From positions 1 through 22,292 of IMG/VR virus record IMGVR_UViG_3300009152_000233: a DNA stretch of 22,292 bases, one strand, 5' to 3'. The position numbers and the translations under genes were made by a program. Below, piece by piece: positions 1 through 22,292 of this stretch. Positions within the stretch are counted from its first letter, which is position 1. Each line of letters starts with the position of its first letter. A model generated the notes under the pieces. The model was not told where the DNA came from. It did not search any database and was given only the letters and a program-made list of their open reading frames with translations. The DNA is from a virus.

Positions 1-3000
1 CTTACACGTTATCCAAGTAATTACGAAAAAGAAGTAAGCGAAGAAACTCGTATTAATGCACGTCAAAGATTAATCAAGTTAGAAAAACAACTTGAAGCTG
101 GAAAGATAACACCAGAAGGTTATCGATTAGGTGTGCAAAACGTAATTGATACAATGGAATCAGCGCGAATTAAACAACAATCCAAAGTCATAACTTCTGC
201 TAATCGTAGACGTGGAGCAGATTGGATAGTATCTCAAATGCGCAGAGGTGTTGCTGATAAGTATTTTGAAAAAAGTGAAGCTGATTTTGCACAATGGTTG
301 CTCTATCAAAATCCACATTTAGCCGATAATTTAGGATTTAGTGTCACAGCAAAAGATGGTGCTGGAACAGGAGGTACATATAATCCTTTATCTCAAGTTA
401 TCCAATTATTTGTAAATAATTCAAATGCAGGTACAGCAGTTCACGAGATACTTCATCACACTGAACGCATGATGCCCGAAGATGTTAGAAAAGGTATTAT
501 CAAAGCATGGGAAAAAGCATTAGCTGATGAATTTAAAAATACTCAAGATGCTAAATTAGTACGAGCATTAAATAATATGCTTGTGGCTTCAATGGGTAAT
601 CCAGATGCTAAACGTACAATGATGGGTGATTTTAAAGATGGGACGTTAAGTGTTGAAAAACATTATCAACTTTACAATCCATCTGAATTTTGGGCAGTTA
701 ATGGTACTCGTATTTTAGAGCAACGCTTTGAAGCAAAAGATTCTTGGGTAAAAATAGCAATGCAATGGATGAAAGAATTTTCTCAGAAAATCAAAGACTT
801 ATTAGGATTAAAATCCGATAATGCTGTTTTAAAAGCATTTGAATCAGTTGCTAATGGAGATGGGAAATTTGTTTCTGAGGGAATGATTCAAGATATTGCA
901 GGAATTCCAACGGGCGGTCTACTTGCCGACATCGCTCAAAACGAAGAAAACCTTTTCAATTTACCTGCTGAAACCAAGTTCCAATTTATGCGCAAATGGA
1001 TTCAAGATGATTTATTGAGAATCCGTGTTGTAATGGATAAGATTAGAGAGCAAGGCGGTAAAGTCGATGAAAGCAATGATGTGGTTCTTGCTATGGAAGC
1101 TGCGGGTAATATCGCAGCGAACCAATTGGAAAGTCTTAAAGAGCGTTTTATTCAACCGCTAATTGATAGAATGGCGAAAATGAATGTAAACAAAGATGAA
1201 ATTGGTTTACTTCTTTATGCTAAAGGCGCTCCTAGTCGTAATGCTTACATCCAATCTATCAATCCTAAATTCCGTAAATTAGGTGAAGGCGGTAGCGGTA
1301 TGACTGACTCAGAGTCAGCGGCTATTATTGAAAGATATAAAGAAACAATGGGTGATAAATACCCAGAGTTTGAAAAGTTAGTTGATGATTGGCAAAACAT
1401 TCAAAACATAGTTAAACGAATCTTAGTGCAATCGGGTGACATTTCACCAGAGCAAGCAGAGGAATGGGATAATGCGTCAGATTATCATGTTCCAATGAAG
1501 GGTTTTGAAGAAGTCGATGAAGTTACTGGTAAAGCAACTAAGAAATCTAGTCGTGGCAATATTGGTCAAGGTTTCTCTATATCGGGTAAATTCGATAGAA
1601 AAATGCTAGGTCGGCAATCGCGTGCTAGTCAAATTGTTGAAAACATTGTTATGAATTTAGAAAGAGCAGTTATTCGTTCTTCTAAAATGTATGTGCAATC
1701 AGTGCTTTACAAGTTAATTGAAGATAATCCCGACGCTAATTTATGGGAAACTGAAGTTACTCCAATGCAACCAGTTATGGGTAAAGCCAAAGCGCAATAC
1801 GTCATGTACTTCAACGGCAGTGAGATTGGTCAACGCGATACATTAAAAGATGCGCGTCGCTACGTTGAAGCAGAGACAGCGCGAACAGGTCAATCTAAAC
1901 GTGAATATGAAATTATTAAAGTAGGCGGTGAACCTCAAGTTACTTTGATGAAAAAACCTTATGACCAAAATGAAGAAATATCGTATTGGCGTAATGGTAA
2001 ACAAGTTCGTATTACAGTTAACGATCCGGAATTTGTACAAGCGTTTAATAGACTAGGTGACGAGAACATTTATTCCATGTTTAAGGTCATGGGTGCTTTT
2101 AATAGATTCTTGCGTCATGCCTATACGATTTTAAACCCTGTGTTTATTATTGCAAATGGCGTAATGGTTGATCCAGCAGTCGCGCTATATACCAATACCG
2201 CTAGAAAAGGATTTAAATACGCATCCACCGTGTTAGCTAATACTCCAATGGCTTCTTTGCAACTTGCCAAATACATGGCAAAAGGAACATCGGACAATGC
2301 GCAGTGGGATAACACAATCAAATCTTACCTTGATAACGGTGGTAAATCGGGAACAGCCTTTATTTCAAGCATTGAGCAAAAATCTGACGAACTTAACTTA
2401 GCGGTTTTAAAATCAAAAATGATGGATACTAAGTTTTATGAGTATCCACTAGATAAATTAAAACTGATGGTTGTAGATAATAAACTTGCTAACTTAATGA
2501 AATATTTAGGAGAAGTTGGCGAAACAGCAACCCGTTTATCCACCTTTAAAGTCGCTGTTGATAAAGGTATGAGTCCTCAAGAAGCAGCTAAAGTTGCACG
2601 AAATGTAACCATCAACTTTAATCGACGCGGTATTGTCGGTAGAGAACTTGGTGCGATGTATTTGTTTTTAAACGCATCTATACAAGGTACTGAAAATTTA
2701 ATTGATGCTACTATTCGCGGAGAGCATAAAGCGCAAGCTACCGCGATACTTTCAACTTACGTTGCATTGGGTTATTTAATAGCACTACTTGGTGGAGATG
2801 ATGGGGATGATGATTTGATTCCCGAAGAAGAAAAAAATAGATATATCAGTATTGTATTAGATAAAGAAACCGGACTTCGCGTCAATTGGAAACTTGCCTA
2901 TGGTTTATCGTTCTTTAAGGATGTCGGTATAGCAATCCGCAGAATACAAGCAGGCGGTGATGTGGAGAAAATTACCAATAAACTGATGTCATCTTTCTTT

Positions 3001-3738
3001 GGTAACTTTGCTTATGTCAATCCAATGGCATCGGGAGAATGGGATTCTAAAGATTTAATAGCAGGTATGATTCCTACCTTTGGGCGAATTCCTTATTCGG
3101 TTATTAATAATAGAAACCAATGGGGTAAACCTATTTATCCAGAAGATGTTTACAACACCACTGTTCCAGATAGTGAAAAAGAATGGTCTACAACAAGAGG
3201 TACGATGTATTCCGACTTTGCTAAATGGATGAACAAAGTCACAGGCGGAACAAAAGTAGAATCTGGCTTGGTAGATATATCTCCCGAAACAATGAAGTAT
3301 TTGACAAATGCGCTTACCGGATCGGCAGGAACGCAAGTTTATAAATTTGTAAACTCTATTTACACTTCTTCAATGAATGCTGAAGAAATGGGATTACATA
3401 ATTTACCTGTCGTATCGGGGTTTGTGAAAGAAAATACTATCGATGCTTATCGTCGTGTTTATAACTCGCAACGCAAAGAAGCAAAAGATATTTACGATAA
3501 GTTTAAAAAGTATGAAAAATTAGGTGATGATGACGCTACTGATAAATTTACCAGTAAGCATCAACCTACGCTCGACTTCTACGATGAAACCAAATCGATT
3601 ATCAAAGAGGTAAAAGATTTGCGAGATAAGCAAGATGAAGCACGAGTTGAAGGCGATAAGGCGTTAGTCAAAGAGCTTGAAGCTGAAGAAAAACAACTAT
3701 TGATTGAATACAGTTACCAGTATAATCAACGTCAGTAG
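1..3738 (+). CDS. Large polyvalent protein, zincin motif plus LPD38-like region (5' partial)
   Basis: The frame is open from base 1 with no stop, so the gene begins upstream; the GTG at 133 is not a convincing start. 1245 residues are visible. A zinc-protease signature HEILHH lies at visible residues 148-153 (nt 442-459). Around residues 682-967 is a pattern I recognise from the LPD38 domain of phage polyvalent proteins: an 'NRFLRHAYTILNPVF' block (NP near residue 712), then a hydrophobic helix at about 913-932 followed directly by an acidic run (DDGDDD). The C terminus is charged and coiled-coil-like. Polyvalent proteins are known as very long multi-domain phage or conjugative proteins thought to be delivered into the cell with the DNA; the zincin may cleave a host or phage protein. 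Delivery and substrate here are inference. The gene is followed by a hairpin and the packaging genes. The family call is good, the domain borders approximate. Confidence 0.75.
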   Translation, partial: LTRYPSNYEKEVSEETRINARQRLIKLEKQLEAGKITPEGYRLGVQNVIDTMESARIKQQSKVITSANRRRGADWIVSQMRRGVADKYFEKSEADFAQWLLYQNPHLADNLGFSVTAKDGAGTGGTYNPLSQVIQLFVNNSNAGTAVHEILHHTERMMPEDVRKGIIKAWEKALADEFKNTQDAKLVRALNNMLVASMGNPDAKRTMMGDFKDGTLSVEKHYQLYNPSEFWAVNGTRILEQRFEAKDSWVKIAMQWMKEFSQKIKDLLGLKSDNAVLKAFESVANGDGKFVSEGMIQDIAGIPTGGLLADIAQNEENLFNLPAETKFQFMRKWIQDDLLRIRVVMDKIREQGGKVDESNDVVLAMEAAGNIAANQLESLKERFIQPLIDRMAKMNVNKDEIGLLLYAKGAPSRNAYIQSINPKFRKLGEGGSGMTDSESAAIIERYKETMGDKYPEFEKLVDDWQNIQNIVKRILVQSGDISPEQAEEWDNASDYHVPMKGFEEVDEVTGKATKKSSRGNIGQGFSISGKFDRKMLGRQSRASQIVENIVMNLERAVIRSSKMYVQSVLYKLIEDNPDANLWETEVTPMQPVMGKAKAQYVMYFNGSEIGQRDTLKDARRYVEAETARTGQSKREYEIIKVGGEPQVTLMKKPYDQNEEISYWRNGKQVRITVNDPEFVQAFNRLGDENIYSMFKVMGAFNRFLRHAYTILNPVFIIANGVMVDPAVALYTNTARKGFKYASTVLANTPMASLQLAKYMAKGTSDNAQWDNTIKSYLDNGGKSGTAFISSIEQKSDELNLAVLKSKMMDTKFYEYPLDKLKLMVVDNKLANLMKYLGEVGETATRLSTFKVAVDKGMSPQEAAKVARNVTINFNRRGIVGRELGAMYLFLNASIQGTENLIDATIRGEHKAQATAILSTYVALGYLIALLGGDDGDDDLIPEEEKNRYISIVLDKETGLRVNWKLAYGLSFFKDVGIAIRRIQAGGDVEKITNKLMSSFFGNFAYVNPMASGEWDSKDLIAGMIPTFGRIPYSVINNRNQWGKPIYPEDVYNTTVPDSEKEWSTTRGTMYSDFAKWMNKVTGGTKVESGLVDISPETMKYLTNALTGSAGTQVYKFVNSIYTSSMNAEEMGLHNLPVVSGFVKENTIDAYRRVYNSQRKEAKDIYDKFKKYEKLGDDDATDKFTSKHQPTLDFYDETKSIIKEVKDLRDKQDEARVEGDKALVKELEAEEKQLLIEYSYQYNQRQ

Positions 3739-11608: not shown

Positions 11609-12289
11609 ATGACATTTCTTGAACTCGCTAATCGCCTTTTATCTGAAGCAGATATTTCTGGTGCAGGATTAATCACAACGGCAAATCAACAGGGTGAGTA
11701 CAAACAAGCTGTTGATTACATCAATACTGCATATGCAGATATTCAATTACAACACGCCAATTGGGATTTCCTACGAGGAGATATGTCATTTAATACCATT
11801 AACGGTGTAAATAATTATTCTCAAACGGCTATCAGTTTAGCGGATTTAAGTGAATGGTCGCCCGAAACTATGCGCATCTATTTAACAGCGAATGGGATTG
11901 TCAGTGAACAATATCTCATTCCTGTTGAATGGGATGAGTTTAGAGATTTATTCATGTTTGGGAATGCGCGTATTCAAACCGGATTCCCAACACACTTTAC
12001 TATAAAACCTGCGGATAATTCGCTTACGTTTTATCCTATACCAGACAATGTTTACACGGTAGAAGGCGAGTATTATAAAAATCCTTCTGTCTTAGTAAAC
12101 GATACCGACACGCCAATTTTCCAATCTCGCTTTCACATGATTGTGGTTTGGCGAGCATTGATGTATTTTGCAACACAACTCAATGCCCAAGAGCTTTACG
12201 CCATCGGTAACATTGAATATCGTAAATTACTCTTTAAACTTGAACAGTTTAATTGCCCTGTACCCACTGCTTCGGAAGAACTCGCATGA
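11609..12289 (+). CDS. Adaptor / tail tubular A-like protein
   Basis: 226 residues. 'GEYKQAVDYINTAYADIQLQ' followed by 'NWDFLRGDMSF' is the signature I associate with podovirus adaptor proteins such as those of SU10-type phages, functionally like T7 gp11. These bind the portal base and carry the nozzle. The N-terminal helix (FLELANRLLSEADI) and the later mixed region with 'FTIKPADNSLTFYPIPDNVYTVEGEYYK' also fit. GGA (11598-11600) precedes the ATG by 8 bases. The stop overlaps the next start in ATGA, and the next gene is the likely nozzle, the expected partner. The family name is from memory. Confidence 0.75.
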   Translation: MTFLELANRLLSEADISGAGLITTANQQGEYKQAVDYINTAYADIQLQHANWDFLRGDMSFNTINGVNNYSQTAISLADLSEWSPETMRIYLTANGIVSEQYLIPVEWDEFRDLFMFGNARIQTGFPTHFTIKPADNSLTFYPIPDNVYTVEGEYYKNPSVLVNDTDTPIFQSRFHMIVVWRALMYFATQLNAQELYAIGNIEYRKLLFKLEQFNCPVPTASEELA

Positions 12290-14628
12290 GAATGAACGCG
12301 CTACCTAATGTTAAAACCACGACGCAATACTCGCGTTTTGCCGGAGGTCTTGATTTGGTATCGCCACCTCTCACTATTGATGCGGGTAAATGTATTTCAA
12401 TTAATAACTATGAGTGCAATGCACTGGGTGGTTATCGTCGCATTGATGGGTATGAGCGTTTTGACGGCAGACCTTCTCCTAGCGCTCAGAGTTACTACTA
12501 CTGCCCTTGCACGTTCTCAGCGGCAGTCACAGTAGGTCAAACAATTACAGGCGCTACAAGCGCGGCTACAGGCAAAGTATTACAGGTTGAATCCACTTAT
12601 CTCATTATCGATAGAGTGACGGGAACATTTGTTCTTGAGAACTTTAAAGTCGGTGGTGTTGTAAAAGGCGCTTTAACTATCCTGCCTTCCAAAGACGGAC
12701 ATCCTACAGGTATTGGTCATGCCACTGCACTTGGCTTAGTAGCGGATGATTATCGTGCCGATATTACTGCTGTAACTGGTAGTGGGGTGCTTCGCGGTGT
12801 CTGTATGTACAAAGGCATTGCTTATGGGTTTCGTGATAACGCGGCAGGAACGGCAGTCGATATTTGGAAATCAGCTTCCACTGGATGGCAACAAATTACA
12901 CTGTTCAAATCACTGCCTTTTAAAAGCTGTACGGTAGATGTGCTTGATGGCGTTGTTATTAATCAAAAGAACTCTGGCGCAACAGCGACTGTTAAACGAC
13001 AAGTAATTGAAACTTCTCAAAGTTTAGATGATTTAGAAGCTACTAGTGATACCACTACAGTGATGGCATTAGGTTCACATACGTTTACCATTCAAACGGG
13101 GAAAGCCTATGTCGCGGGGCAAGCGATATTAATTATTTCAACCGCGTCGCCAACCAACTATATGGAAGGTACGGTAACTTCGTACTCTACTAATCAAATT
13201 GTCATTAATATTACAAATAAAGTAGGATCGGGTACTTACGCATTATGGCGATTACATTCCGATCCAATTAATATTCGCAGTGACACTGGTCGCTTTATTG
13301 TCACAAGTGTCACCGGCACATGGACAAGTAATGTAGCGGATACGATACGAGTGGGTATTATTGATATCGCTGTTGTTGATAATCCCAGTGGAAATCCTGT
13401 TACTCAAATTAGCATTCTACAAGGTGGTAATTATCAGTTTGTTCAACATAACTTTTCAGCCGCGTCCGATGGTAAAAAATTATATGGTGCAGATTCATTA
13501 AATCGTGCTTTTGAGTTTGACGGTGACGTATATATCCCCATTAGAACTCAAATAACCATTGACGCACCGACCACTATTGCAGCGATTAATGGTCAACTTG
13601 CCTTATCTTATTTTGGTACAGTGATATTTTCAGCGGTAGGTAACCCCCATGACTTTAGAACAACTAGTTTAGGTTTTCAAGATGTTCAAGAATTTGGCGA
13701 TACTATTACTGGTATGAGTCCGATTGTTGGTGGAGTCCTTGCTGTTGCGTGTCGAGATAGTTTTTGGAAAGTATCCGTTGATTCGCAAACTAGTCTTTAC
13801 AAAGCGGAACTAATCTCTCCAGATATTGGTGCTATTCATTATGGGTTAATGAATCTTGGCGCACTTTATTCATTTGATGATAAAGGGATTATCCGCATTG
13901 TTCCTTCTTATGTATTCGGTGGCTTTGAACACGATACCATTAGCCGAGCCATTCAACCCGTTATTGATCGTTTCCGAGAAAAGATTGTCGCTACTGTGGT
14001 TTATAAAAGCAAAAACCAAGTTAGGTTTTATGCAAATGACGGTACGGGCATTATCATGACAATAACTTCGGGCGTAACGCAAACAGGCGCTGCGACCACT
14101 GGTCATGACTTTTCCGAGTTCACCTATCCCATCAATATTAGTTACGCATGGAGTGGTGAGGATGCAAGTGGGCGAGATATCGTTTTACTTGGCGATGAAG
14201 ATGGTTATGTTTATGTTGCTAATACTGGATCATCTTTTGATGGCGAACCTATTCAAGCCTATATCAGAACAGCATTTAATAATGTAAAATCACCCTCAGC
14301 AATCAAGCGATTTAGAAAAATTGAAGTTGAGCTTTCAACCGTAGGTTATTCGTATATTCGCTTTAATCCAGATTTCTCTTATGCTGATCCATCTATTGCC
14401 ACGCATCTTCTTAAATATGAAGAACTGCAAGGCGCAGGGGGTTATTGGGATGAAGCGATATGGAATGAATTTTACTATGATGGAAAGATAGTTTCTCAAC
14501 CAGAAATTCGCATACAAGGAAGTGGAACAAACATTGGTCTAGTCGTTTTCTCTAATTCGGCTATTGATTTAGGACATAATTTATCGGGCATTGTACTTCA
14601 CTACACGCCTAGAAAACTAAATAGATAA
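12286..14628 (+). CDS. Nozzle / tail tubular B-like protein
   Basis: 780 residues from the ATG at 12286, which overlaps the adaptor stop (ATGA) and has GGAAG (12274-12278) 7 bases upstream; a TTG at 12253 would only extend into the adaptor gene. The N terminus (residues about 17-50: 'FAGGLDLVSPPLTID', then 'NYECNALGGYRRIDGYE') parallels the start of T7 gp12-type nozzle proteins ('GG.S..P', then 'N..SE..G..RR'). The rest is almost entirely beta-strand, as expected for a propeller/barrel nozzle. The size is close to T7 gp12 (794). It would form the hexameric distal tube below the adaptor. Sequence similarity to gp12 itself is weak; the call combines pattern, size and order. Confidence 0.7.
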   Translation: MRMNALPNVKTTTQYSRFAGGLDLVSPPLTIDAGKCISINNYECNALGGYRRIDGYERFDGRPSPSAQSYYYCPCTFSAAVTVGQTITGATSAATGKVLQVESTYLIIDRVTGTFVLENFKVGGVVKGALTILPSKDGHPTGIGHATALGLVADDYRADITAVTGSGVLRGVCMYKGIAYGFRDNAAGTAVDIWKSASTGWQQITLFKSLPFKSCTVDVLDGVVINQKNSGATATVKRQVIETSQSLDDLEATSDTTTVMALGSHTFTIQTGKAYVAGQAILIISTASPTNYMEGTVTSYSTNQIVINITNKVGSGTYALWRLHSDPINIRSDTGRFIVTSVTGTWTSNVADTIRVGIIDIAVVDNPSGNPVTQISILQGGNYQFVQHNFSAASDGKKLYGADSLNRAFEFDGDVYIPIRTQITIDAPTTIAAINGQLALSYFGTVIFSAVGNPHDFRTTSLGFQDVQEFGDTITGMSPIVGGVLAVACRDSFWKVSVDSQTSLYKAELISPDIGAIHYGLMNLGALYSFDDKGIIRIVPSYVFGGFEHDTISRAIQPVIDRFREKIVATVVYKSKNQVRFYANDGTGIIMTITSGVTQTGAATTGHDFSEFTYPINISYAWSGEDASGRDIVLLGDEDGYVYVANTGSSFDGEPIQAYIRTAFNNVKSPSAIKRFRKIEVELSTVGYSYIRFNPDFSYADPSIATHLLKYEELQGAGGYWDEAIWNEFYYDGKIVSQPEIRIQGSGTNIGLVVFSNSAIDLGHNLSGIVLHYTPRKLNR

Positions 14629-17338: not shown

Positions 17339-17923
17339 ATGAGTCCTCAAACAACTGAACAATTACGTCAATACGTTAATCAATCTAATACAAGTCATGC
17401 ACAATCTGCATTAGGTCGATTTGAACAAGAATTACAAGCAAGAGATACTTCTCAAAGGGGAATGCTTAGTCCTTCTTTTTTTGAAAATAGAACTCAAATG
17501 AGCGCTAAGGATTCTACTTATTTTGCGACACCGCAACCACCTGCTCCAGCGAGCGGTGGCATGAGCGTAATGTGTACTTTAATGCGTGAATATGGCTATC
17601 TTGAAGATGATGTATTTGATGCGGATACTTTATTTGGGCATTTGATTGCAGATACTCATCCAGAAGTCCTCATCGGCTATCATGCGTGGGCAAAACCCCT
17701 AACTGAATTCTTGCGTAATAATGCGATTTATATCCCGTTATTTGCCTATATTGTTCAAGCATGGGCATATGAAATGGCAGAGCAATTTGGCATTGTAAAA
17801 AATCGCAGTACATTTAAACGATTAGTTGGTAAAATAGTGATGAATGTAGGTAAGCCAATTTGTGGGTTTATCGGAACAGTAATTTCATCATCACAAGGAA
17901 ACTATGAGTATCACCGGACTTAA
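17339..17923 (+). CDS. CTLMRE-motif virion-region protein, unknown function
   Basis: 194 residues; AGGTGG (17327-17332) precedes the ATG. Residues 1-75 are polar and probably disordered, ending in a Pro/Ala linker (PQPPAPASGG). Residues 78-150 form a conserved helical domain starting 'MCTLMREYGYLEDDVFDAD', continuing with 'HPEVLIGYHAWAKPL' and an amphipathic 'YIPLFAYIVQAWAYEMA'. I recall the same 'CT..M.ELGYL...' domain in phage proteins near, or at the C terminus of, tail fibres, with no settled function. The gene overlaps the following cupin-oxygenase by 20 bases, so the two are translated together. Tail or fibre-associated role is inferred. Confidence 0.7.
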   Translation: MSPQTTEQLRQYVNQSNTSHAQSALGRFEQELQARDTSQRGMLSPSFFENRTQMSAKDSTYFATPQPPAPASGGMSVMCTLMREYGYLEDDVFDADTLFGHLIADTHPEVLIGYHAWAKPLTEFLRNNAIYIPLFAYIVQAWAYEMAEQFGIVKNRSTFKRLVGKIVMNVGKPICGFIGTVISSSQGNYEYHRT

Positions 17924-18788
17924 CGTACAAGCACATCACTTTATTGGCGGAGTCTATGCTAAAGAAGTGATTATTGACGATGGCTTTGAAGTTCAGCAAC
18001 ACGCTCATACCTTTGATCACATGAGCGTTCTTGTTGAAGGATGCGCTATAGTTTGGCAAGGTGATACTCAAGAAACCTATTTTGCCCCTGCTGTGATTGA
18101 AATTAAAGCCGGTATTGAGCATAGCGTTCAAGCGGTTAACGGTAGAGTGGTTTGGCTATGTATCCATGCTACAGATACTTGTGATGCAGAAAATATAGAT
18201 GACGTGCTTATCGGCAAACCCAATATGGTCAATACCGGTATTCATGTTGATGTATCGGTTATCAATAAATTTATTTCTGATAATGATTATTTATGGAATA
18301 AATTTAAACAACGTACTGAATCGTCTAAATCGCCACATAGAGAAGTTGACGATATCTGGGTTCGCTATAATGATATTAAAAATTATAATCCATCGAACTC
18401 TTTAGCATTTCATGATGAACACGATAGCGTTTTCTATATTAACGATCAGAAATTTAAAGATGAAATTGCTAAGATTAACCGTGCAATTTGTGAAAAACAC
18501 AATATCCATAAAACAGAATTTGGTGGTATTTTAATTACTCGTATTCCTGCCGGTAAACAAGTCTATCGTCATAACGATGCGCATAGCTGGCATGCAGAAT
18601 ACTATAAAGATAAATATTTAATCCCTTTAGAATCCAATGATAAACAATCTTTTAACTACGAAGGGCAATCTATTATTACTCCTGTGGGCGATATATTTAG
18701 TTTTAATAACCTCGTTGACCATTGGGTGTTAAATGATTCGGATTCACCACGGGTTAGTTTAATAATTTGTATGCGCCATAACGCATAA
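17904..18788 (+). CDS. Cupin–2-oxoglutarate/Fe(II) oxygenase fusion (Asp/Asn hydroxylase-like)
   Basis: 294 residues; AAGGA lies 4-9 bases before the ATG. Residues about 10-100 are a cupin: motif 1 reads G27-x5-H33-x-H35-x3-H39-x6-G46, with His replacing the usual Glu, and motif 2 gives 'KAGIEH' with H73, so a four-His metal site is expected. Residues about 145-292 are a double-stranded-beta-helix oxygenase of the aspartyl/asparaginyl beta-hydroxylase type: H223-x-D225 in 'VYRHNDAHSWHAEYY', distal H273 in 'LVDHWVLND', and R283 ten residues later, the position that binds the 2-oxoglutarate carboxylate. All catalytic residues are intact, so it is probably an active protein hydroxylase; substrate unknown. 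It overlaps the upstream gene and directly precedes the fibre. Confidence 0.82.
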   Translation: MSITGLNVQAHHFIGGVYAKEVIIDDGFEVQQHAHTFDHMSVLVEGCAIVWQGDTQETYFAPAVIEIKAGIEHSVQAVNGRVVWLCIHATDTCDAENIDDVLIGKPNMVNTGIHVDVSVINKFISDNDYLWNKFKQRTESSKSPHREVDDIWVRYNDIKNYNPSNSLAFHDEHDSVFYINDQKFKDEIAKINRAICEKHNIHKTEFGGILITRIPAGKQVYRHNDAHSWHAEYYKDKYLIPLESNDKQSFNYEGQSIITPVGDIFSFNNLVDHWVLNDSDSPRVSLIICMRHNA

Positions 18789-18828: not shown

Positions 18829-21800
18829 ATGAGTACCTTTAACCCACCGGCTGATATTGCTCAGATTACTCTAGCAAAATCCTCAGACGTTAACGCTGTT
18901 AAGGCGGCTACGGCAATTGCATTTGGATTACTTCCAAGTGAAACCAAACTTCAACGTGGTACAGTCAATTTCGCTGTAGACACCGGTACAGCGAATACCT
19001 ATGTGGTAGCACTAGACAGTTCCATAACAAGTTACACCGATGGTCTACAAGTCGTATTCAGACCTCTCAATGATAATACGGGTAGCGCCACTATTAATTT
19101 AAACAGTCTTGGTACGAAATCTATTAGACTTACTGATAGTGAACCAATTCAAGCAGGGGATATTAGCGCTGGAGGGATAATTGAGGTTCGCTATAGTACG
19201 TCAACAGGGTTTTTCCATTTAACGCCAAACTCAGCTATTTACGCTCACGATGCAGGGGTATCGGCAACAGCCGCAGCGGCAAGTGCATCGACGGCATCTA
19301 CTCAAGCAACTAATGCCGCAAGCAGTGCATCGTCAGCAAGCACATCAGCATCTAACGCATCAACTTCTGCCACTAACGCAGCGACAAGTGCATCCTCTAT
19401 GACGGCAAGCGTAGCAAGCTGTACTGCTAGTCAAACTGCTGCAGCGACAAGCGCTACTAACGCAGCGACAAGTGCATCGGGTGCATCAACATCAGCCACA
19501 ACTGCGACTACTCAAGCAGGTATTGCTACAACACAGGCGGGTATTGCGACCACTCAAGCAACTAACGCATCGACTTCAGCATCAACAGCAAGCACACAGG
19601 CAACTAATGCGGCTAATAGTGCATCAACTGCAACAACTAAAGCAAGTGAAGCATCAACTTCTGCTACTAACGCTGCGACATCTGCAACTAACGCATCGAC
19701 TTCAGCATCAACTGCTAGTACGCAAGCATCTAACGCATCAACATCAGCTACCAATGCGGCAAGTAGTGCCACAGCGGCATCGGGTAGCGCTTCAACTGCC
19801 ACAACACAGGCAGGGATTGCAACAACACAAGCAACTAACGCTGCAACAAGCGCGTCAACTGCAGCAACACAAGCAACTAACGCATCTACCTCAGCTACTA
19901 ATGCGGCAAGTAGTGCTACCGCAGCAGCGGCTAGTTATGACTCATTTGATGATAGATATTTAGGCGCAAAATCAAGTAATCCAACGGTGGATAACGATGG
20001 TAATGCACTACTTACGGGTGCGCTCTATTGGAACACAACAAGTAGCGAAATGCGCGTTTATAGTGGTAGCGCATGGATAACTTCTTACTTGCCTGCATCG
20101 GGATATTTAGCGTTAACTGGCGGCACGATGACGGGTGCAATTACGTTTGCGGCTGGGCAAACTATTGCTAACTTAGCATCTGGAAGCGCAGGTACAATTC
20201 CATACCAAACAGCATCGGGTACAACCGCTATGCTTGCTGTGGGGACATCTGGTCAAGTATTAACTTCTGCTGGTGCGGCTGCGCCTACATGGTCTACACC
20301 TGCGGCTGCTACAAAAACCATATCAAATCAAACAGCAGCATATACAGTCGTAGCAGGTGACTTAGGTAAAATCATTAACTGCACTAGCGGTACATTCACT
20401 GTTAGCTTAACAGCCGCTGCGTCATTGGGTAGTGGGTTTACTTGTACTATTTGGAATACATCTAATACAGCAACGGATGCAATTACTATTGACCCAAGTG
20501 GTGCTGAAACGATTGATGGACTTGCGACGTTGACTTTGCAAATGGGTGAAGGACTCGAGATTATATGTACTGGTACAAATTGGCAAACAGGAAATCAAAA
20601 AGAAATAAGAGGATATTCTGAAAATATCCTATCAACCGACACCAGACCATCTGCCTCAGGACTAAATTCAATTTCTCTTGGTAGCACGTCATCGGCTTCC
20701 GGTCAAGAGTCATTTTCTTTTGGTATATCTTCTCAGGCTTCAAATATATACACTGTTGCAATCGGTAGAACTGCACTAGCACAAGGTCTTCGATCAATTG
20801 GAATCGGAACGTTGGTAACCGCTTCTTCTGATTATTCGCTTGCTATAGGTCAAAACTCATCTGGCAGTGGATCAAAAGCAATCACAGGCGCAGGAGCAAT
20901 GGCACTAGGCGGTTCATATGCTTCCGGTACAGATAGTTTCGCTGCGGCTATTGGCAATAATACGAGTAGTTATGGGGCAAATGGTGGTAATAGTATTGCT
21001 ATGGGATATCACGCAAAAGCTAATGGTTACGGAATATCCATAGGTTATAATTCAGCATCAAATGGGACATCTTTTACAGCAGTGGCTATTGGTGAAGCTA
21101 CTAATGCCGTTGGTAATGGTGTTATAGCTGCTGGACATACTGCTTCAGCTACAGCCGATTATTCTAGTGCATTTGGAGCTAGTGCTAGTGCAACGTCAAT
21201 TAATTCTACATCGATAGGTAGAAACTCTGGTAATCAAGGTTCAGTCACCGCAACAGGCTCTGGCGCAATGGCACTAGGTGGTTCATACGCTTCTGGTACA
21301 GATAGTTTCGCTGCGGCTATTGGGAATAATACGAGTACCTATGGGGCAAAAAATACAAGTTCAATTGCAATAGGAAATATAAGCGTTGCAAGTGGGGCTT
21401 CAAGCAGTGTTGCTATAGGATACCAATGCGGGGCAACAGGCGGAAGAAGTGTTGCGATAGGGTATCAATCATTTGCTACGAGTAGTAAAGCGTTAGCTAT
21501 CGGTGATGGTTGCACTGCTGGAGATAATGGGGTGGCTTTGGGTATAGCCGCATCTGCATCTGCTGTAGGAGCAGTTGCTATTTCTGGTACAGCTTCTGCT
21601 ACCGGTGCAAGGTCTTTTGGTGGAACTGCATCCTCTAGTTATTCAACATCTATCGGTAACAACTCGGCTGGGGATGGTTCACAAGCAGTAACAGGCGCAG
21701 GTGCAATGGCACTAGGTGGTTCATACGCTTCTGGTACAGATAGTTTCGCTGCGGCTATTGCGACTAATACGAGTAGTTATGGGGCGACTGGGGCTAATGG

Positions 21801-22292
21801 TGTTGCTATTGGGCAGACGGCTAAATCGTCAGGTACAACATCAGCTGCTATAGGCACACAGGCTTTATCATCTGGGGGGTATTCAATATCGCTTGGATAT
21901 AACACAACATCAAGCGGAAACTACTCATGTGCGTTAGGAACATTTACAACAGCTAGTGGTGAAAGGTCTGTCGCTACAGGAACTCAATCGATAGCAGCCC
22001 AATACGGAAAATTTGCATACTCAGGTGGGCAGTTCGCAGCTCAAGGTGATGCTCAAGCAGGTAAAATGGTTCTTCGTGCAGCAACCACAACCACAACAGC
22101 CGTAGCATTAACATCCGATGGCGGTGCAGCATCAACAGCTAATCAACTTATCCTAGCATCTGGTCAAGCGATGGCAATTCAAGGCACATTGATAGCTAAA
22201 CAATCTGGTAGCGGTAATATGGCTGGCTGGAACATCACAGGTATAGTGTCGAATAATGCAGGTACGATGGCGGTGAGTGGGTTAGCGTTAAC
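18829..22292 (+). CDS. Giant tail fibre with Ala-heptad shaft and YadA-like head (3' partial)
   Basis: The frame is open from the ATG at 18829 to the right edge (1154 codons, no stop), so the gene continues. Domains in order: residues 1-145, a beta-rich virion-attachment region; 146-369, 32 consecutive heptads A-x-x-A-x-x-S/Q forming a probable coiled-coil shaft; 370-416, the 'YDSFDDRYLG ... YSGSAW' block frequent in phage fibres; a GGTMTGAITF repeat near 431; about 505-585, a beta-sandwich-like region ('YTVVAGDLGK ... CTGTNW'); about 614-1055, YadA-head-type beta-roll repeats (S-[IV]-A-[IL]-G); from about 1060, a 'KFAYSGGQFAAQGDAQAG' C-terminal domain also seen in other phage fibres. It is probably trimeric and binds the host surface. 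A C-terminal chaperone or tip could lie beyond the window. Confidence 0.88.
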   Translation, partial: MSTFNPPADIAQITLAKSSDVNAVKAATAIAFGLLPSETKLQRGTVNFAVDTGTANTYVVALDSSITSYTDGLQVVFRPLNDNTGSATINLNSLGTKSIRLTDSEPIQAGDISAGGIIEVRYSTSTGFFHLTPNSAIYAHDAGVSATAAAASASTASTQATNAASSASSASTSASNASTSATNAATSASSMTASVASCTASQTAAATSATNAATSASGASTSATTATTQAGIATTQAGIATTQATNASTSASTASTQATNAANSASTATTKASEASTSATNAATSATNASTSASTASTQASNASTSATNAASSATAASGSASTATTQAGIATTQATNAATSASTAATQATNASTSATNAASSATAAAASYDSFDDRYLGAKSSNPTVDNDGNALLTGALYWNTTSSEMRVYSGSAWITSYLPASGYLALTGGTMTGAITFAAGQTIANLASGSAGTIPYQTASGTTAMLAVGTSGQVLTSAGAAAPTWSTPAAATKTISNQTAAYTVVAGDLGKIINCTSGTFTVSLTAAASLGSGFTCTIWNTSNTATDAITIDPSGAETIDGLATLTLQMGEGLEIICTGTNWQTGNQKEIRGYSENILSTDTRPSASGLNSISLGSTSSASGQESFSFGISSQASNIYTVAIGRTALAQGLRSIGIGTLVTASSDYSLAIGQNSSGSGSKAITGAGAMALGGSYASGTDSFAAAIGNNTSSYGANGGNSIAMGYHAKANGYGISIGYNSASNGTSFTAVAIGEATNAVGNGVIAAGHTASATADYSSAFGASASATSINSTSIGRNSGNQGSVTATGSGAMALGGSYASGTDSFAAAIGNNTSTYGAKNTSSIAIGNISVASGASSSVAIGYQCGATGGRSVAIGYQSFATSSKALAIGDGCTAGDNGVALGIAASASAVGAVAISGTASATGARSFGGTASSSYSTSIGNNSAGDGSQAVTGAGAMALGGSYASGTDSFAAAIATNTSSYGATGANGVAIGQTAKSSGTTSAAIGTQALSSGGYSISLGYNTTSSGNYSCALGTFTTASGERSVATGTQSIAAQYGKFAYSGGQFAAQGDAQAGKMVLRAATTTTTAVALTSDGGAASTANQLILASGQAMAIQGTLIAKQSGSGNMAGWNITGIVSNNAGTMAVSGLAL
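19264..19935 (+). repeat. 21-nt periodic repeat, 32 units, encoding Ala heptads
   Basis: Exactly 672 bases, 32 units of 21, with no phase slip. Each unit encodes A-x-x-A-x-x-S/Q/K: Ala at position 1 and at position 4 in 30 of 32 units each; position 7 is Ser 22 times, Gln 9, Lys once. The exceptions cluster in units 7-9 (ASSMTAS, VASCTAS, QTAAATS). The first and last units encode the same heptad (ATAAAAS). Units vary at codon level but recurring strings such as ACTAACGCATC are frequent. It lies inside the fibre gene. Confidence 0.9.
20884..20979 (+). repeat. YadA-like fibre module, copy 1 of 3
   Basis: 96 bases encoding TGAGAMALGGSYASGTDSFA and a further 12 residues (AAIGNNTSSYGA). It recurs at 21253-21348 and 21691-21786. 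Compared with copies 2 and 3 it differs mainly at synonymous positions. It is preceded by a looser related segment (LAIGQNSSGSGS). Confidence 0.9.
21253..21348 (+). repeat. YadA-like fibre module, copy 2 of 3
   Basis: Second copy of the 32-residue module, with Ser for Ala at position 3 and Thr for Ser at position 29. Bases 21265-21322 (58 in a row) are identical to 21703-21760 in copy 3. The preceding segment is TSIGRNSGNQGS. Confidence 0.9.
21691..21786 (+). repeat. YadA-like fibre module, copy 3 of 3
   Basis: Third copy of the 32-residue module, with Ala-Thr replacing Gly-Asn at positions 24-25. It shares 58 consecutive identical bases with copy 2. The preceding segment is TSIGNNSAGDGS, so the duplicated unit is somewhat longer than the near-identical core. 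Confidence 0.9.

Follow-up and report, generated by a model that had tools for sequence, protein, structure and literature searches.

Introduction

Hydroxylases of the Asp/Asn type have been noted in the cyanophages P-HM1 and P-HM2 (PMC3037559), in pelagimyophages (PMC7029224) and, as ORF8, in Limnohabitans phage DC33 (PMC12195039), in each case with no function given. Such enzymes recur in lists of phage auxiliary metabolic genes, with no role assigned to them. Small cupins are found in phage tail modules: in Vibrio phage VvAW1, gp04 is preceded by the Hc3 nozzle and collar fibre genes and followed by the DNA ejection gene, the corresponding member in Bordetella phage BPP-1 is bbp23 (L153:8962-9417), and a cupin domain (RmlC-like) has been annotated in the short tail fibre of a Ralstonia phage (PMC8703784). 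A search of the open-access literature, with subscription papers outside its scope, returned no report of a pairing or fusion of cupin and hydroxylase.

Here we describe such a fusion, built from known families, on a 22,292-base stretch of viral DNA (IMG/VR record IMGVR_UViG_3300009152_000233, positions 1 to 22,292), referred to below as the window.

Results

The fused gene and its conservation

The gene (17904..18788, plus strand) is an ATG-initiated open reading frame of 294 residues, defined by the frame itself, Pfam matches, 33 close viral loci and purifying selection. Its cupin domain (about residues 1-105; 17904..18218, plus strand) contains H33, H35, H39, H73 and C86, the histidines forming the cupin ligand pattern HxHx3H...H. 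Pfam Cupin_2 (PF07883) matches residues 23-87 with 28.2 bits against a curated cutoff of 27.2, a score that is marginal by itself, and the assignment is backed by PHROG and PDB profile matches. The 2OG-Fe(II) oxygenase domain (about residues 106-294; 18219..18785, plus strand) carries H223, D225, H273 and R283 and was delimited from Pfam, conservation, a structural model, Foldseek and junction comparison. Pfam Asp_Arg_Hydrox (PF05118) covers residues 177-292 with 33.8 bits against a cutoff of 22.6; the domain extends beyond this match and starts at about residue 105. The initial annotation, which read this frame as a cupin joined to a complete 2-oxoglutarate oxygenase with H223-x-D225, H273, R283 and a four-His cupin site, is borne out by the reading frame, the Pfam matches and the conserved residues at these positions.

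At 89-99% identity the fused protein has 33 matching viral loci, of which one holds a C-terminal fragment only, and the named residues are present in 32 close relatives; one scan of prokaryote genomes found no close relatives. Catalytic and cupin-His residues are invariant in all of the distinct fused sequences of equal length (20/20), and in these 20 genes dN/dS is 0.05 for the cupin and 0.14 and 0.19 for the hydroxylase parts. Given the 33 matching loci, the invariant key residues and the low dN/dS, the fused gene is under purifying selection and is not a chance ORF. The H-D-H-R set is retained in 66 of the 67 complete hydroxylase rows of the alignment. A loop in and just after HxD (residues 224-227; window 18573-18584) differs among close relatives, with S, N or K at 224, K, A or S at 226 and G or H at 227; the HxD motif residues are fixed despite this variation.

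The hydroxylase half is an ordinary 2OG oxygenase by its residues

When the hydroxylase half was modelled alone, with 32 relatives as alignment, a confident fold was obtained (pLDDT 92.2, pTM 0.89). The best Foldseek matches of this model are 2OG oxygenases at a TM of about 0.6, which share the double-stranded beta-helix fold and include a Burkholderia 2OG-Fe(II) oxygenase, a proline cis-4-hydroxylase, an antibiotic-pathway hydroxylase, a chlorella virus prolyl hydroxylase and human AspH (PDB entries 6n1f, 4p7w and 5c5t, plus AspH). By sequence profile, proline cis-4-hydroxylase ranks first (E 6e-5) and AspH is weaker, and the hydroxylase of locus L059 has a weak NCBIfam match to LpxO. The window protein has the facial triad HxD/E...H and the 2OG-binding arginine of the Fe(II)/2OG superfamily, and it scores above the curated cutoff of PF05118.

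AspH proper is defined by a two-His iron site that lacks an acidic ligand and by a TPR domain, and its targets are Asp/Asn residues of EGF-like domains. In human AspH the iron is held by two His only and the usual HXD/E...H triad is missing (PMC7251097). The window protein has a conserved D225 at this position, and Pfam found no TPR domain in it. Judged by these residues, the phage family falls within PF05118 as an ordinary 2OG oxygenase. The earlier description of a full iron and co-substrate set of Asp/Asn beta-hydroxylase-like enzymes stands for the complete 2OG site; since the full HxD...H triad is present here and AspH itself lacks it, these residues do not imply specificity for Asp/Asn. 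Structure prediction had been proposed as a check. The hydroxylase half folds confidently. The full-length model (alignment A3; pLDDT 80.9, pTM 0.66), whose PDB matches are bicupins with large rmsd, was used only loosely because split cupins and hydroxylases are mixed in A3 and the split hydroxylases have their N-terminal half misaligned there.

The cupin half belongs to a family of tail-module proteins

The cupin half matches PHROG 24280 and 12032 (E 2.8e-11 and 3.9e-9), whose labels, tail fibre adhesin and short tail fibre, are annotation only; both the sequence family and the place in the tail module identify it as a cupin of this tail type. Its nearest solved relatives by profile are CelOCE (9bwf) and small metal cupins including TM1459 (5wsd). 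It contains the four-His ligand set HxHx3H...H of the TM1459 type, with a histidine spacing as in TM1459, and would be expected to bind a metal.

A reverse scan was run with hydroxylase-partnered cupins as queries, and the counts given here refer to its best 80 loci. All of these (80/80) retain the four-His site and the cysteine. One clade of lone cupins (L111-L151 and L037, as well as BPP-1 bbp23) has lost the site, which reads K/H/H/R and similar, and has kept its place in the tail module; on the tree, the site was lost once. Retention in the tail module after loss of the site suggests a structural core role for the cupin. The four-His site had also been considered as a marker of partnership with the hydroxylase (45/45 with the enzyme, 5/36 without). 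This was refuted by the cupin scan, as the site is kept in 80/80 of the best cupins, of which at least 21 have the enzyme, and its loss occurred once. Two relatives of the window phage have another cupin gene, different from the first, downstream of the fibre (L028:8715-9140 and L029:11969-12394).

The retained metal site raises the question of whether the cupin is itself catalytic, acting in sequence with the oxygenase or on the same small substrate, for instance a sugar of the surface, so that the fusion would be a two-centre oxidative enzyme. Such an activity would accord with the site being kept throughout the best 80 cupins, with the cellulose-oxidising cupin CelOCE as best solved profile relative and with the RmlC-like cupin in a phage short tail fibre. 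The similarity to CelOCE is remote, however, the site is kept where there is no hydroxylase, and a large clade has lost it although its cupins are still tail-module proteins, in what looks like a structural core role. We regard catalysis by the cupin as quite unlikely.

Membership of tail PHROGs could also mean that the fusion is a virion component that brings the enzyme onto the tail, where it would act on the cell surface during entry. Both Fe(II) and 2-oxoglutarate, however, are cytoplasmic co-factors that are scarce outside the cell, and the split forms do not have to be virion components. Action at entry therefore appears very unlikely.

Cupin and hydroxylase are paired across viruses

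In a scan with the hydroxylase domain, relatives were picked regardless of any cupin and fell into 36 clusters at 85% identity, one of them the fused cluster of the window and 35 further ones. A separate cupin gene directly adjoins the hydroxylase in 22 of the 36 clusters, 15 in the order hydroxylase-cupin (H-C) and seven in the order cupin-hydroxylase (C-H); in 13/36 no cupin was found nearby. In the reverse scan a hydroxylase was present in the fetched flank of at least 21 of the best 80 cupin loci, a minimum since some flanks are short and the enzyme of L159 lies beyond its flank (L080, same contig). All 21 are directly adjacent to the cupin (13 H-C, 8 C-H). The view of the initial annotation that cupin and hydroxylase also occur unfused, each as a small protein of phage tail modules, is supported by 22 of 36 clusters and by the cupin scan. 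One contig (L054:9953-10681 and 12540-13121) has two near-identical hydroxylase genes, of which one only stands beside a cupin.

In a group of loci with a short fibre and a cupin, the hydroxylase has been cleanly inserted or removed between the two, with gene order otherwise the same (with hydroxylase, L156, L157, L160, L163 and L164; without, L161, L162, L165 and L167). On the cupin tree its presence changed about 10 times, at least three of them on supported branches. From the same gene order with and without the enzyme and from these changes on the tree, the cupin is the constant part, a common tail-module protein, and the hydroxylase its optional accessory neighbour. Adjacency in both orders, direct adjacency wherever both occur, and the fusion support a partnership: the two proteins are very probably functionally linked and work together, as had been proposed from the fusion and as the 22 clusters with an adjacent cupin also indicate.

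Hydroxylases that lack a cupin have other small neighbours. Eight of the 13 cupin-less clusters have a small P-loop-like gene in front, three a conserved ORF of about 70 aa behind, and two neither. The former gene was seen directly upstream of the hydroxylase in L048, L051, L053, L055, L057, L061, L064 and L076; it encodes a protein of about 175 aa with a P-loop-like start, GLPRSRT(A/G)WL, and belongs to PHROG 10855 ('hydrolase'). One record labels it 'similar to sulfotransferase'; that label (family f11) was not upheld, as it stands in this one record and neither Pfam nor PDB supports it. The cupin and the GLPRSRT(A/G)WL protein look mutually exclusive as hydroxylase partners. In L043-L046, L049, L050 and L071 a conserved ORF of about 65-73 aa, with the motif FD(M/L)YFASxxSMQFHPGAGTK, overlaps the 3' end of the hydroxylase and could be a small partner or a substrate of it. 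Two isolates have a GNAT acetyltransferase-like gene after the hydroxylase (Limnohabitans phage DC33, L152, 9980-11052; Pseudomonas phage PfAn1, L036, 7995-9059), which is a further modifying-enzyme partner in these phages. DC33 ORF8 matches the hydroxylase profile; the DC33 record (PQ492659.1) is filed under Inoviridae, although the paper describes a tailed particle with a 39-kb double-stranded genome.

The enzyme being optional, with different small partners in other phages, the hydroxylase might instead be an accessory ('moron') enzyme, expressed late and directed at a host molecule, be it lipid A or another surface component, a protein or a metabolite. Its place in the tail operon would then serve expression timing, and the cupin link would reflect an insertion site. 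PF05118 also holds LpxO and small-molecule hydroxylases such as proline cis-4-hydroxylase, the best PDB profile match. Against a host target, both genes are always adjacent where both are present, on either side and once fused, and the slot beside the cupin held no other gene class in the best 80 cupin loci. We consider a host target unlikely, yet deserving of weight.

Genomic setting and the adjacent fibre

Upstream of the fusion the window has terminase, SU10-type portal and SU10-type adaptor genes, from which the virus is likely a short-tailed phage. The head-tail adaptor (11609..12289, plus strand; Pfam SU10_adaptor) is followed by a likely tail-nozzle gene (12253..14628, plus strand), which matches phrog_5107 over 562-765. 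This PHROG also matches the nozzle/Hc3-type protein of L059, and its label 'amidase' is probably misleading, given tail-nozzle-type matches in window 12253-14628 and L059:4564-6174. At the left end, positions 1-3738 hold an open-ended ORF of 1245 aa that carries an LPD38 domain and represents the C-terminal portion of a polyvalent phage protein of very large size.

Directly upstream of the fusion lies a gene of 194 aa with a conserved C-terminal half (17339..17923, plus strand). The 20-nt overlap reported between the two genes was confirmed, at the stop end of the upstream gene. A homologue occupies the same place in all fused loci read; no Pfam or PHROG family match was found for it. Comparison of the 343-, 538- and 194-aa genes of the window with the ejection genes of relatives by hhalign detected no homology.

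Forty nucleotides downstream of the fused ORF starts the tail fibre ORF (18829..22290, plus strand; PHROG tail fibre, Pfam YadA_head), which is open at the window end. It consists of a conserved N-terminal part of about 140-160 aa, an Ala/Ser/Thr/Asn heptad region at about 141-365 and YadA-head-like repeats. The window fibre has 11 such repeats and the fibres of relatives range from 295 aa upwards; Pfam found YadA-head repeats in 0/10 of the relatives' fibres.

From this adjacency the initial annotation had offered the Asn-rich heptad shaft as a substrate, with Asp or Asn as the hydroxylated residue. In every fused locus having downstream DNA, the next gene is indeed a fibre with the common N-terminus and variable length, and the window fibre does have the heptads. 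However, the Asn-heptad shaft is lacking in several relatives whose fusion is intact, among them L013, L014 and L015. The survey of relatives, suggested to relate fused and split forms to fibres, showed split forms mostly beside nozzle or ejection genes and not long fibres. Among the hydroxylase relatives, the nozzle gene and the first gene of ejection type are the steady neighbours: in about 27 of 36 clusters, counted from gene maps, a gene of family f3 (which holds the VvAW1-type ejection protein), f17, f42 or f54 follows the block immediately or after one intervening gene. The window lineage has the fibre next to the block instead. Finally, the short fibre beside the cupin is unchanged in kind between the clean presence and absence loci. 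Because the fusion persists where heptads are missing and short fibres are alike with and without the enzyme, the shaft is an unlikely substrate, and its hydroxylation at Asp/Asn strikes us as highly improbable. The conserved N-terminal domain of the fibre might still be a substrate. Comparison of relatives with and without the enzyme gave nothing clear in the way of hydroxylase-linked changes in short fibre or cupin, and names no substrate.

Origin of the fusion

In the hydroxylase tree the fusion is placed together with two clades, one of split C-H pairs and one that has no cupin (support 99/97). Split C-H genes abut or overlap by a few bases; in L193, for example, the cupin ends ...DEVLIGKE* and the hydroxylase start lies inside ATGA. 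The window junction reads ...DDVLIGKPNM..., with the likely start Met of the hydroxylase kept in frame. M108 is thus likely a relic of the start codon of a separate hydroxylase gene. The overlapping split genes and the in-frame Met fit an origin by a lost stop, and the fusion looks to have arisen in this way between overlapping C-H genes.

Discussion

We tentatively favour, at somewhat less than an even chance, a model in which the hydroxylase is an optional partner docked on the tail cupin and, as the virion assembles, modifies either this cupin or some tail protein that the cupin binds. The N-terminal half would be the four-His form of a small tail-module cupin common to many short-tailed phages, and the C-terminal half a putative Fe(II)/2-oxoglutarate hydroxylase. 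As expected from established 2OG oxygenase enzymology, hydroxylation would be coupled to 2-oxoglutarate, with succinate and CO2 released. The genomic data are consistent with the cupin serving as docking partner, so that the enzyme would act on the cupin-containing tail complex while virions assemble, its target being the cupin or a bound nozzle, ejection or fibre-base protein. Since most phages with a tail cupin lack the enzyme, the modification would be an optional trait, which might for instance tune stability or the interaction with the host. The stop between earlier overlapping cupin and hydroxylase genes would have been lost in the window lineage.

Several points speak against this model. 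The 13 of 36 hydroxylase clusters with no cupin nearby show that the enzyme does not need the cupin, most four-His cupins among the best 80 lack a hydroxylase, the comparison of relatives with and without the enzyme singled out no substrate, and the adjacency could stem in part from a shared insertion site. In a broader proposal, tail metal cupins would both dock an optional phage hydroxylase and carry its substrate, and a hitherto unreported enzymatic hydroxylation of a virion protein would vary between close phage relatives; this is possible and, in our estimate, less likely than not.

The tie to a specific tail-module protein, seen in both gene orders, in natural presence and absence and in a fusion, gives one of the phage hydroxylases a concrete partner. 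The link with a tail cupin moves the question of their role from metabolism towards virion assembly. Should virion proteins be hydroxylated, this would amount to an optional post-translational change of the phage particle.

Comparison with known systems

The hydroxylases of cyanophages P-HM1/P-HM2, of pelagimyophages and of DC33 have the enzyme label in common with the window enzyme. They differ in being unfused and in having no reported cupin partner; DC33, like PfAn1, has an acetyltransferase-like neighbour. With the PF05118 Asp_Arg_Hydrox family (AspH, LpxO and relatives of proline cis-4-hydroxylase) the window enzyme shares the Pfam match, the fold and HxD...H...R, whereas its size of about 190 aa, the lack of a TPR or membrane part and, unlike human AspH, a full triad set it apart. 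The collagen prolyl hydroxylase vCPH of chlorella virus PBCV-1 (5c5t) is likewise a virus-encoded 2OG hydroxylase of similar size and a Foldseek match, but it is a prolyl hydroxylase of a eukaryotic virus and belongs to another family by sequence.

Among cupins, TM1459 and CelOCE resemble the window cupin as single-domain metal cupins and in their profile match, and differ as non-phage proteins that lack an oxygenase fusion. The cupins of PHROG 24280 and 12032, namely VvAW1 gp04 ('tail fiber adhesin', PHA00672 superfamily) and BPP-1 bbp23, are of the same family as the window cupin, and VvAW1 gp04 also matches window-type cupins in its place before an ejection gene. Both lack the full four-His site and a hydroxylase, whereas the window member is fused to one.
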